Positions 12,663 to 30,521 of a stretch of 35,831 nt of DNA are shown here, one piece after another. The position numbers were made by a program, and so were the translations under genes. Under the pieces are notes generated by a model. It worked only from the letters and a program-made list of their open reading frames with translations. It had not been told where the DNA came from and did no database searches. Location: positions 1-35,831 of the IMG/VR virus record IMGVR_UViG_3300044707_000156, one strand, 5' to 3'. Position 1 is the stretch's first letter. Every line of letters begins with the position of its first letter. The stretch comes from a virus.

Positions 12663-12689
12663 AAAAAAAGAGGGGATTTTAGTCCCCTC
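12660..12689 (-). terminator. Intrinsic terminator after the major capsid gene
   Basis: Minus strand: stem GAGGGG/CCCCTC (12689-12684 with 12675-12670) followed by eight T. The stop codon of the candidate capsid frameshift extension (12690-12688) abuts the stem, so the open -1 frame fills exactly the space up to the terminator. Confidence 0.85.
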
Positions 12690-12718
12690 ATTCGGTAGTT
12701 AGATTATCTATACCATTC

Positions 12719-12777
12719 TGCTCCAATATGTCCTGCTCATCTTGAGTCAGTAAACCTATTGGAGCATCTATGGGTTT
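12719..12777 (-). other. Candidate programmed -1 frameshift signal at the end of the capsid gene
   Basis: The last sense codons of the capsid gene read GTA AAC CCA TAG. This contains the heptamer A-AAC-CCA (12777-12771) in the X-XXY-YYZ register. Four bases downstream begins a perfect 10-bp inverted repeat TGCTCCAATA (12766-12757) / TATTGGAGCA (12728-12719); its loop holds a nested CTG-a-CTC/GAGCAG stem. A -1 slip would add 27 residues (starting IDAPIGLLTQ, ending DNLTTE) and stop at 12688. Confidence 0.55.
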
Positions 12778-13877
12778 ACGATACTAACGCAATTCACATA
12801 GTTTACACCACTGAACTTATCAGATGCCTCGTAAATGTCGGTAGGTAATGTAACAATCTTACCAGTTGTAGTTAATACAATTGATAGATTACCACAATCA
12901 TCCTTCATTGTCAAGTCAGCAGGTAATCCTGCAGGAGTGAATACCAAAGTCTTGGAGTAATTGCTCCCTGCTACTGGTGTGATTCCTGCATTCCAATCTG
13001 CCAAGTTGAATGATAACCACTGGATTGCTCCTGCAGTTGTTACCAGTGCAGATGTTTGGTCACCTTGCGCTGCTGCCAAACGAGCATCATAGGCGAATCC
13101 AAATCCGTTCTGCTGACTGATGGCAAGTAAGTCAATGCCATATTGAGTGCAGCATCCTGCTTGAACTGCATTGGCATAACGCTGCATTGCAGCACCACCA
13201 AAGGCAATTGGAGAAGATGGATAGTTAGCCATACGAGTTGCTTGTAGGATATCAGCAAGAGCGAATGGATTGAGTTCTGCAGAACCAAGTTCTGTAGCAA
13301 TCTCCAAGCAGTCACCAGTTACAGAGTAGTAACCTTCAACATCAGTTCCCCACTTACCAATCTCTGCTACTGCTTGAGTCGCAGCAGCAGATGCTACCTT
13401 GCGGTCTAACACATCCATCAAACGCATTACAGACTCAAGTACATAACGTGAGTTGTCTTGGCAATGGCGAGCGATATCAGCAGCATTGATTAGTTGAGAT
13501 GCTTGATAGGTATCAGTTACATCCAATGTGTAGGTAGTAGTAGAATCCCCATAGGTATTGGTAGATGTACAAGTGAGGATATCCCCACCTTCTTCTACTT
13601 CCGTCTCGGGCAATCGCTGAATCCATCGTGCTTGGATAGTCTTCAACTTACCTCCACTGGGAGATACTTCTTGGCGAATTAATTTTACGTTTTCGGGAGA
13701 CAACAAGAATTCCAAGAATGGCAATTGCTCACGTTGTCCCACTTCAATAAAGAGTTCCGATAATGACATCTGTACATTAGGACACTCCGATAGTATGCGT
13801 GAAATAGACATAGTTTCAAAATTGTTTGGTTGTTGGATTCGTTTATTAGGCTGAATCCTTCTGCCTACAATTGCCAT
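12768..13877 (-). CDS. Major capsid protein (369 aa; possible 396-aa frameshift form)
   Basis: Assigned as the major shell protein from length, composition and position directly after the scaffold region, with its own promoter-like box and terminator. Notable stretches: PFLEFLLSPENVKLIRQEV near the N-terminus, an 'ARWIQRLPETEVEEGGD' segment, a long Ala-rich helix (VLDRKVASAAATQAVAEIG, spine-helix-like), and a beta-rich C-terminus with LVFTPAGLPADLT. The overall layout (N-arm, helix, mixed domains) fits an HK97-type fold. No prohead protease gene was recognised; the N-terminal arm may be short and unprocessed. A second possible start lies 22 codons in. The 3' end carries a candidate -1 frameshift that would produce a minor extended form, as known for T7 capsid protein 10B. 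Confidence 0.72.
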   Translation of the reverse strand: MAIVGRRIQPNKRIQQPNNFETMSISRILSECPNVQMSLSELFIEVGQREQLPFLEFLLSPENVKLIRQEVSPSGGKLKTIQARWIQRLPETEVEEGGDILTCTSTNTYGDSTTTYTLDVTDTYQASQLINAADIARHCQDNSRYVLESVMRLMDVLDRKVASAAATQAVAEIGKWGTDVEGYYSVTGDCLEIATELGSAELNPFALADILQATRMANYPSSPIAFGGAAMQRYANAVQAGCCTQYGIDLLAISQQNGFGFAYDARLAAAQGDQTSALVTTAGAIQWLSFNLADWNAGITPVAGSNYSKTLVFTPAGLPADLTMKDDCGNLSIVLTTTGKIVTLPTDIYEASDKFSGVNYVNCVSIVNP

Positions 13878-13931: not shown

Positions 13932-13960
13932 CAAAAAAAAGAGGGACTCTCATCCCTCTT
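13932..13960 (-). terminator. Intrinsic terminator after the gene at 14002-14286
   Basis: Minus strand: stem AAGAGGGA/TCCCTCTT (13960-13953 with 13946-13939) with a run of T after it. It isolates the short-gene island from the capsid gene. Confidence 0.85.
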
Positions 13961-14001
13961 TAGTCTGCAAATACCAAAACCACTTGGTAATTCAAAGGTA
14001 A

Positions 14002-22812: not shown

Positions 22813-24471
22813 TTATTCTTGATACAAGTTAATCAAGTTCTCTGTTACAATCCTCTCATTATCCTCCGCAAGTATGAATGGTTCATCTTGGTTATCCAGT
22901 ATTGATGGTAGGCAATCAGCAGTTACACCAATGCATATGGTCTTCCGTACTAAATCGTTCTTCTTGTACAATTCAATTGTGATTGCTCCCAAATCATCTG
23001 CAGTCTCATATTCAATTGTCGGAAACTCATCTTCTGCAGGAAAATGCAATACACCATTAACATAGCAATTGTCAAAATAAAATACGATTGATAAGAAATC
23101 AAAAACGTATTCGGGCAATCTGCCAAAGTAGTATGATAATTTCTTTTTTCTATCTACATATGATGCACTCCATCTACCACTTGAATATCTGAACAAATCA
23201 GTATCAGTATCATATTGTGCTTGGAATCTCCTACCTTCCAATCTGATAGATGGCAGGAATGAACTGCCATAGAACGATAATCCAAACTGGTCTTCTCCAT
23301 TGCATCCTTCAATCTTGAAGAATCTGCAGGGGTCTGAATAATCTCCAATGGTTATTAGGTCGCTATACTTGTCATATGTTGCCCACTCCTTGTATGCTCT
23401 TAACTGAACTTGACTAACTACAATATCTCCTCCTGCTATTATAGAACTTCCTCTCAATGATATTTTACCACTGCTTGTCGGAATGATGTTAGCAGTATAT
23501 GTTCCTGCACTATTGATTGATGTGAGGTATTGAGTGCCATCAATCCATAATCTTAATATACAATCATTGATGCTATCAACAACAATAGTTATGCTATACT
23601 CCTTGCCTTCACATACCTCAATAATTGATTCAAGTATTGTTACTTCTAATCCATTGTTAAATATGATTTGTGCTTGTCCATTGCCTACAATCCAATTGGA
23701 TGTACCAATATCATATACATTATCCCATCCCACTGGTGGACATCCAATACATAGTCCCCAATCGTTAAAGTAAGGATTGTACATATAATACTGCCCACAA
23801 GTATTTAGGCAATAATCTGCAATGGCTAACCTATAACATCCTTCCTCAAGTTCATAATCTGATAGGTCTATGGCAGCAGTTAGGTATTGGTCTTTGGTAA
23901 TAATGGTTGGGTCTAATACTTGGACTATAGATAGGTCTTGTGCATCTACGATTCCTGCGAATAATGCACCATTGCAGATTGGCACAAACTCATCTAATGT
24001 AACTACTCCAACAAACTCATCTGTAGGTTTTGCTACGAGCAATAAGTCTTGTGTAGGTGAATCAAGAACTGCAGAAATAGCATTAGCCTTTAGGTAAATA
24101 ACGTGAGTCCCTACTGCACTTATCTCTACGAATGTACCATTGGTAAATGCTACTATTAATGTCCCAGTTGAACCTTGGTTGATGGTTATGGTTACACGAT
24201 AGTCCAAGCAGTTTTGGAATTTGGCATAGATGAATCCTGCAAGATTGCCTCCTGCACTATCGGGAAAGGTTATCTCGTTGCCATCTATTGATGTTGATAC
24301 TACAATGGTATCTACCAATCTCAAGTATCCACACTCTCCTGCTTCCAGTTGCCAAAATACTTGGTCATTAAAATCCATCAATTGAGCATAGTCCTTATTG
24401 CATCCATCACATTGTTCGGGCAATTGGCTATCAAAGATAATTGGTTGGTTTGGGATAGATGTATAACTCAT
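22813..24471 (-). CDS. Distal tail structural protein, jelly-roll-like segment (552 aa)
   Basis: Large beta-rich, Gly/Asn/Thr/Ser-rich protein located after the tape measure and the 676-residue protein, where tail-tip and fibre components are expected. The N-terminus (SIPNQPIIFDSQLPEQCDGC) is followed by Cys-containing beta repeats. Around residues 250-360 a region with WDNVYDIGTSNWIVGNG and KISLRGSSIIAGGDIVVSQV resembles a carbohydrate-binding jelly-roll module. The C-terminal part is also strand-rich. The start overlaps the upstream stop (ATGA). Probable host-surface recognition or tail-tip structure; the exact role is inferred. Confidence 0.62.
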   Translation of the reverse strand: MSYTSIPNQPIIFDSQLPEQCDGCNKDYAQLMDFNDQVFWQLEAGECGYLRLVDTIVVSTSIDGNEITFPDSAGGNLAGFIYAKFQNCLDYRVTITINQGSTGTLIVAFTNGTFVEISAVGTHVIYLKANAISAVLDSPTQDLLLVAKPTDEFVGVVTLDEFVPICNGALFAGIVDAQDLSIVQVLDPTIITKDQYLTAAIDLSDYELEEGCYRLAIADYCLNTCGQYYMYNPYFNDWGLCIGCPPVGWDNVYDIGTSNWIVGNGQAQIIFNNGLEVTILESIIEVCEGKEYSITIVVDSINDCILRLWIDGTQYLTSINSAGTYTANIIPTSSGKISLRGSSIIAGGDIVVSQVQLRAYKEWATYDKYSDLITIGDYSDPCRFFKIEGCNGEDQFGLSFYGSSFLPSIRLEGRRFQAQYDTDTDLFRYSSGRWSASYVDRKKKLSYYFGRLPEYVFDFLSIVFYFDNCYVNGVLHFPAEDEFPTIEYETADDLGAITIELYKKNDLVRKTICIGVTADCLPSILDNQDEPFILAEDNERIVTENLINLYQE

Positions 24472-29566: not shown

Positions 29567-29783
29567 CCCTTTTAGTTTGCTTTATTGACATTTCAAATTT
29601 AAGCAAATAAGTTGATACATCTCCTCTCATTAATTCATTGAATTCTGATACATTACCTTTGCACAAGTTCATCACTTGGCTTCTGAATTCTTCTTGGATT
29701 TTCTTTGAACGGAATCTTGGTGAGTATTGAGCATAGTTAAACTCTCCATCAGTTTTCTTTGCGCCACTACGTTGTACTCCCAT
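29553..29783 (-). CDS. Tail chaperone second frame (gpT-like; 76 aa if started at its own ATG)
   Basis: Second frame of the presumed tail-assembly chaperone pair, immediately before the tape measure as in lambda G/GT. The frame is open from just before an eight-T run at 29855-29848 to the stop at 29553, so a -1 slip there would fuse about 157 residues of the upstream protein to this frame, making a product of about 257 residues. It also has its own ATG (MGVQRSGAKKTDGEFNYAQ), so separate translation cannot be excluded. Helical and basic; the last part (FNELMRGDVSTYLLKFEMS) looks well ordered. It overlaps the tape measure start by 14 bases. Confidence 0.6.
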   Translation of the reverse strand: MGVQRSGAKKTDGEFNYAQYSPRFRSKKIQEEFRSQVMNLCKGNVSEFNELMRGDVSTYLLKFEMSIKQTKRDGIG

Positions 29784-30325
29784 AAACTCTGCAGTTCTTG
29801 TGGAGACATAGTTAGCAATGGCATTAGTGGACTGATACCCAATTGGGAAAAAAAATCGTGCGATGCCTCCTTACACATCGCATCAAATACTTCAAGTTTA
29901 GATTGGTGGATATCTGAATTAATTATAGTTGGGTCTTCATCATCTCTCACTACCCACACTGCTGCAAAGTTTAGTAGTAGGTCTCTGTGTATAACACTAT
30001 TCTGCCTCTCCCTAATAACGTGAATGTATCCTGCTACCACTGCTGCGTTCTTTGGGTTAGATAGTCCTGCTGCTAATGATTTTTCCATTCCATCCAGTAT
30101 CTGCTCCATCTCACTCCCACTCAATCCACTGCTGATGCGTTCCATCAGTGACAATGCCATACTGAATCTCTCAAGTGGTAGGCTTGTCTCTTTGGGGAAT
30201 CTATAGTACCTATGTCCCTCGTGTTTGAATACCTCAACGAGATTATGCTTTGGATTAGGTTTCTTATTGGAGTGATACCAAGGTAGTCGCTTGGCGAATC
30301 TTGTGAGTGATTGAGTCCAGTTCAT
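29672..30325 (-). CDS. Tail assembly chaperone (gpG-like, 217 aa)
   Basis: Binds and keeps the tape measure soluble during tail assembly, inferred from position and frame structure. Helix-rich protein: LPLERFSMALSLMERISSGL, then LAAGLSNPKNAAVVAGYIHV and a C-terminal region SPQELQSLWEYNVVAQRKLM with a basic end. A T8 run at 29855-29848, in register T-TTT-TTT, lies near codon 157, and the -1 frame after it leads into the 29553-29783 frame. The start at 30325 overlaps the 85-residue gene by 62 bases. In many phages the unshifted protein ends soon after the slip; here it runs another 60 residues, which is unusual. Confidence 0.65.
   Translation of the reverse strand: MNWTQSLTRFAKRLPWYHSNKKPNPKHNLVEVFKHEGHRYYRFPKETSLPLERFSMALSLMERISSGLSGSEMEQILDGMEKSLAAGLSNPKNAAVVAGYIHVIRERQNSVIHRDLLLNFAAVWVVRDDEDPTIINSDIHQSKLEVFDAMCKEASHDFFSQLGISPLMPLLTMSPQELQSLWEYNVVAQRKLMESLTMLNTHQDSVQRKSKKNSEAK
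29848..29855 (-). other. T8 slippery run, candidate -1 frameshift site of the tail chaperone
   Basis: Eight consecutive T on the minus strand, read as GAT TTT TTT TCC in the 217-residue frame. It is followed directly by CCCAATTGGG, a short palindrome. The -1 frame is closed just upstream (TAA) and open downstream to 29553, as required for a shifted fusion product. Transcriptional slippage on the homopolymer is an alternative. Confidence 0.5.
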
Positions 30326-30521
30326 CGTTTACAAATATTAAATTGCCATTGTTCAGCACTATACTGCATTTATCCTCTTCTTGTGCTATGTGTGAGATGC
30401 TATTGATGTTAATGATTATGTCCATCAGTCCTGCCTCCTGCTCTGTCATCGCTCGTAATTCTTCATCATCAGTCTGAATGCCTTTGTACAATATCGCAGA
30501 GCAAGTGATGAATCCGTACAT
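30264..30521 (-). CDS. Small FlbD-like beta protein of the tail operon (85 aa)
   Basis: Not firmly recognised. The C-terminal half (MDIIININSISHIAQEEDKC then SIVLNNGNLIFVNDELDSI) has the alternating strand pattern and 'I..I......V.L.NG..I.V.E....I...I' layout of small FlbD-like proteins. The N-terminal 30 residues are less convincing, and an internal ATG at 30425 may be the true start. The upstream stop is two bases before the first ATG. It overlaps the chaperone gene by 62 bases. Function unknown. Confidence 0.6.
   Translation of the reverse strand: MYGFITCSAILYKGIQTDDEELRAMTEQEAGLMDIIININSISHIAQEEDKCSIVLNNGNLIFVNDELDSITHKIRQATTLVSLQ

Follow-up and report, generated by a model that had tools for sequence, protein, structure and literature searches.

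A conserved slip site, a covarying stem and a short acidic −1 frame extension point to programmed frameshifting at the end of a probable major capsid gene in a group of related phages

The stretch of viral DNA analyzed here, 35,831 nt of IMG/VR record IMGVR_UViG_3300044707_000156 (hereafter the window), carries on its minus strand a probable major capsid gene at 12768-13811 that ends in the codons GTA AAC CCA TAG, with the 0-frame stop TAG at 12770-12768. The open reading frame had been taken to begin at 13877 (369 aa), but this is an upstream ATG; nearly all relatives begin MSISRI at the position matching the ATG at 13811, so the start likely lies there and the product has 347 aa. One intrinsic terminator lies 5′ of the gene at 13938-13961 (−), so that the gene is probably transcribed as a separate unit, and another follows the region described below at 12670-12689 (−). 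Rfam and tRNA scans of the whole window gave no match.

The initial annotation called this gene a capsid gene, an identity that we consider probable from gene order and conservation and to which homology and fold searches added no match. The gene is preceded by a portal gene (phrog_7376), a gene weakly resembling SPP1 gp7 / minor capsid 2-like proteins and one for a coiled-coil-like protein, and is followed by small virion-type genes; among the virion genes compared it is the most conserved, with a median of 84% across 28 relatives. Searches with the protein against Pfam, PHROGs and NCBIfam returned nothing significant and a PDB search returned no match, while AlphaFold models of the protein from 30 and 29 relatives reached pLDDT values of 31 and 34; Foldseek on the second model found no match, as expected from a model of this quality. 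These negative searches and poor models would also suit a genuine frameshift in a gene that is not the major capsid gene, encoding for instance a minor head or decoration protein. We regard this as rather improbable given the size of the gene, its position 3′ of the portal, minor-head-like and coiled-coil genes, the terminators on both flanks and its rank in conservation. The capsid of Flavobacterium phage 11b was considered as a relative and rejected, as profile comparison shows no similarity.

At the 3′ end of the gene, the heptamer A_AAC_CCA lies in the X_XXY_YYZ register at 12777-12771 (−) directly before the stop, as the initial annotation had read it. Four nucleotides past the heptamer begins a stem of 10 bp, whose 5′ arm (TGCTCCAATA, 12757-12766, minus strand) and 3′ arm (TATTGGAGCA, 12719-12728, minus strand) are fully complementary, in keeping with the perfect inverted repeat described earlier, and the nested stem placed in its loop also folds, with energies from −22.5 to −28.2 kcal/mol according to which stretch is folded. 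The −1 frame (12688-12771, minus strand) reads through 27 codons (IDAPIGLLTQDEQDILEQNGIDNLTTE) before its stop and fills the gap exactly as claimed, its TGA at 12690-12688 abutting the terminator stem at 12689-12670. No other X_XXY_YYZ heptamer on either strand of the window is followed at 3-9 nt by a perfect 10-bp stem; the separate frequencies (0.0028 heptamers per base and 14 stems in 71,502 positions) predict about 0.04 such combinations. Transcriptional slippage was rejected because no long A or T run is present at the site.

We then turned to about 200 relatives in IMG/VR, uncultured freshwater phages whose capsid genes, de-duplicated on their last 900 nt plus 60 nt downstream, yielded 116 distinct ends. 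No capsid or portal relatives were found in phage records or in a bacterial genome collection, where inspection of the matching regions revealed chance matches only. The best terminase match is Flavobacterium phage 11b at 32% identity, which makes a Bacteroidota host likely. The extension is present in 89 of the 116 ends, every time in the −1 frame and never in frame. Counted from the K-P of the slip site, it mostly has a length of 28 or 29 residues (for example KPVIGSVGLLSQADEDLLTQDGLDNLTTQ), with a few ends showing an altered junction, and the 28-aa and 29-aa groups differ in length by exactly one codon. Within this stretch the −1 frame has a pN/pS of 0.29 in the 29-aa group and 0.33 in the 28-aa group, compared with 0.92-0.94 and 1.82-1.83 in the other two frames; these are raw pairwise proportions that ignore shared ancestry, so that the contrast between frames is what counts. 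This contrast indicates that purifying, coding-type selection acts on the −1 frame only. The initial annotation had proposed a C-terminally extended capsid form produced by frameshifting and had named loss of the frame or stem from close relatives as the observation that would speak against it; with frame, peptide, heptamer and stem kept in 89 of 116 relatives, the proposal is supported.

Two other readings of the conserved stretch were weighed against these patterns. An untranslated RNA element, serving 3′ end protection or regulation and leaving the open frame as a by-product, would agree with a conserved stem just 5′ of a terminator, but is made highly improbable by the low pN/pS that the −1 frame retains beyond the stem, in its final 9 codons (0.31 and 0.16), by the unconstrained other frames and by the one-codon difference between the two groups. 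We give equally little credence to separate translation of the extension, unfused to the capsid protein, by re-initiation past the stop: although the stop overlaps the downstream frame as it does in coupled genes, no ATG, GTG or TTG is common to the start of the −1 frame, where the conserved codons are GTA/ATA and ATC/ATA and ATG occurs in some sequences only. Moreover, conservation starts at the slip site, and both slip site and stem are kept.

The stem itself shows extensive compensatory change. Among the 54 sequences of the 29-aa group, the 10 stem pairs are formed in 98.3% of cells, 55 cells are altered on both sides (G-C to C-G in 15 sequences and C-G to U-A in 15, for example), registers slid along the sequence pair only 23-46%, and no shuffle matched the observed covariation score. 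The 28-aa group (15 sequences) has 17 pairs, formed in 97.3% of cells, with 16 double-change cells. The distance from heptamer to stem is 4 nt in the window, 5 nt in most relatives and 6 nt in the 28-aa group. Collectively, these comparisons indicate that a downstream structure is maintained by covariation at a spacing suitable for −1 frameshifting. Separately, CCRU at the slip site (12770-12773) can pair with 12713-12716 (−), 3′ of the stem, in a helix of 4 pairs, 98% of whose cells are formed in the 29-aa group; this helix is unproven since the sequences vary little there, and it could occlude the slip site.

Conservation at the slip site is similarly pronounced. CCCA or CCCG occupies this position in 89/89 extension-bearing ends, and A_AAC_CCR is in register in 86/89 ends with the extension versus 4/27 without it, A_AAC_CCG being commoner than A_AAC_CCA among these relatives. 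The proline codon CCT makes up 50% at other sites of the gene and is never used at the slip site, and in heptamer-bearing ends A precedes AAC with the Val codon GTA and the Ala codon GCA alike. Ends lacking the extension mostly read AAATCC, TAACCC, TAATCC, TAACTC or AAACGC at this position. A small number of ends depart from this pattern: three (L059, L065 and L191) have the heptamer at the stop yet no extension, a fourth (L116) has it slightly upstream of the stop and likewise no extension, three (L025, L030 and L032) carry the extension behind GTC CCG TAA, with no AAA, and eight extension-bearing ends have a sense codon between AAACCCR and the stop. The last two sets suggest that neither the AAA half of the heptamer nor an adjoining stop is strictly needed for the slip.

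We propose, with high confidence and from sequence comparison, that programmed −1 frameshifting takes place as ribosomes translate the final codons of this probable major capsid gene, and that it would yield a minor, C-terminally extended virion protein. When AAC occupies the P site and CCR the A site, the ribosome would shift one base backward onto AAA CCC, most likely through simultaneous re-pairing of the Asn tRNA and the Pro tRNA, while being held in place by the stem that starts 4-6 nt downstream. Ribosomes that do not slip would terminate at the 0-frame stop and release the 347-aa protein (37.3 kDa), whereas those that do would add the 27-residue acidic extension to give a 374-aa form (40.3 kDa). 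The long form is presumably the minority product, and both forms would enter the virion, with the extension acting as an optional surface or assembly tag.

An identical extension would result if a single tRNA slipped, namely if, once CCR had been decoded and the stop was next, the peptidyl-tRNA-Pro moved back onto CCC within the P site, the AAA part being secondary. Agreeing with this are the invariant CCCR, the stop directly after it in most ends, the three relatives that lack AAA, and the +1 shifts at proline codons beside a stop or pseudoknot in Listeria phages (PMC5009743). It would also be favored by the behavior of A_AAC_CCA in E. coli, which tells against the tandem slip: this heptamer is among the 3 of 64 that failed to shift even when paired with a strong pseudoknot (PMC4066793); either the host of these phages differs or the context of stop and stem matters. 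The eight ends with an intervening sense codon argue against a single-tRNA slip, as do the retention of AAA in 86/89 ends over Val as well as Ala codons and the 4-6 nt spacing, which fits slippage with CCR in the A site. We therefore consider it unlikely as the sole route, and favor the tandem slip, to which a stop-assisted proline slip may contribute in view of the three relatives without AAA and the eight with a sense codon before the stop.

Comparison of closely related phages suggests how the extension is acquired and lost. The remaining 27 of the 116 ends lack both extension and stem, and mostly the heptamer as well. On a tree built from the capsid gene minus its end, presence of the extension switches 11 times, at least 8 of them on supported branches, and across 8 independent pairs the heptamer changes along with the extension in 5.7 on average and never in the opposite way. 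Sister phages differ by a clean replacement of about 70 nt, comprising stem and extension, with about 14 nt in otherwise collinear genomes; the sequence flanking the swap is mostly 82-97% identical across kilobases, falling to 76% for the most distant pair, and the terminator follows the swap site in sisters of both kinds. These sequence data indicate that stem and extension are gained or lost as one unit, usually together with the heptamer. A search for a partner gene tracking the extension across 29 genomes (16 with and 13 without) and about 2000 ORFs found nothing convincing, the top candidates resembling antisense or short spurious ORFs.

Deeper relatives, reached through the tail protein, have capsids 69-74% identical to that of the window. 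Two of them (L430 and L431) carry an extension of the same type as the window and two (L432 and L433) a shifted version of it (VIGSVSILQENGEGILSQDGTDITTEGS in L432), with AAACCCG, stop and a stem retained in all four. Three further genomes keep AAACCCG TAA and follow it with an unrelated extension (for example VNPDLPISKQFQDGFDFQFQSGEDYDFQ) that has its own stem. This −1 frame extension, of the FQDGFDFQFQSGEDYDFQ type, lies at 3041-3133 in L482, 2536-2628 in L487 and 3041-3133 in L489, and its pN/pS is 0.18 across three sequences only. These genomes appear to reflect exchange of the cassette behind the same slip site.

We also asked what the extension peptide resembles. In the window it is acidic, with a pI of about 4 and no K or R. 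The mass spectrometry peptide suggested in the initial annotation therefore needs adjusting, as trypsin would release a single 42-residue junction peptide, FSGVNYVNCVSIVNPIDAPIGLLTQDEQDILEQNGIDNLTTE. Queried against Pfam, PHROGs, the PDB and phage records, the extension gave no real match and one chance-level PHROG hit, and at 26-28 residues with no family match it is not Ig-like. When the extension was searched for elsewhere in 30 genomes, each matching genome gave a single match and genomes classed as lacking the extension gave none, with one extension-bearing record (G006) falling below the threshold of this search.

The leucine-rich repeats of the extension (LLxQ...LLTQ...NL) resemble the C-terminus of a 552-aa probable tail protein (22813-24471, minus strand; for example FLLTQAEDRILTQDNVNLYQE), a C-terminus that in the window is encoded in frame at 22816-22878 (−; FILAEDNERIVTENLINLYQE). 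Shuffling gave p values from <0.001 to 0.015 with the best tail sequence chosen each time, and BLASTP of the window pair gave no match, so we treat the likeness only as a lead. Nearly every genome checked has this tail-protein C-terminus, whether it carries the capsid extension or not. In L379-L428, too, the tail protein ends in a leucine/glutamine repeat (for example FILAQDGDRLLTQSNVNLYQQ) that is similar to the capsid extension. As a working guess, the extension would serve at the surface or in assembly as a tag whose dose is set by frameshifting. Elsewhere in the window, two overlapping ORFs at 29672-30521 (−) lie immediately 5′ of the tape measure gene, where a tail chaperone frameshift pair is usually found, and CCCAAAG heptamers occur in this region at 30196 and 30056.

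Several phages are known to extend their capsid proteins by frameshifting. In T7 (gene 10A/10B) and T3, a −1 shift near the end of the capsid gene produces a longer minor form (PMC5009743, PMC4283147); the arrangement predicted here from sequence is alike in direction and position, but no sequence relation to these phages was found, A_AAC_CCR adjoins the stop here and is followed by a covarying stem, and the T3 tail is an Ig-like domain whereas the tail here has 26-28 residues. Privateer and other phiEco32-like podophages also use capsid gene frameshifts, with the longer form detected in virions by mass spectrometry (PMC7881722); their slip sequence is GGGAAAG rather than the AAACCCR predicted here from comparison alone. 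Capsid frameshifting is likewise described as −1 in Lactobacillus phage A2 and Listeria phages A118 and A500 and as +1 in PSA, where the shift uses a proline codon immediately before a pseudoknot (PMC5009743). The shift in PSA runs in the other direction and the A2 tail is Ig-like, whereas a −1 shift into a non-Ig tail is predicted here, and the phage groups differ. Ig-like domains on phage virion proteins are often reached by frameshifting (PMC5009743), and the extension resembles them as an optional, movable C-terminal module, but it is only 26-28 residues long and acidic, and phages gain, lose or swap it along with its stem while the slip site stays constant. Relative to the capsid frameshifts in the open-licence literature, the phage group, the heptamer, the very short non-Ig tail and the cassette turnover are new.

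These findings add to the few groups in which capsid frameshifting is known one whose capsid has no match in 50,697 phage records. They also offer comparative evidence of a kind that is rare for isolated phages, as slip site, stem and peptide come and go together at least 8 times, and near-identical phages with and without the tail make its function testable by comparison. Tentatively, and with somewhat less than even confidence, we suggest that the constant A_AAC_CCR serves as a landing place for a swappable stem and short acidic tail, that the host, probably a member of the Bacteroidota, shifts efficiently on this heptamer although it is inert in E. coli, and that the tail, one type of which resembles the tail-protein C-terminus, may act as a tag common to virion proteins and be placed on the capsid at a dose set by the ribosome. 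The slip-site rules established in E. coli may not apply in the host of these phages, with consequences for searches for frameshifting in other bacteria.
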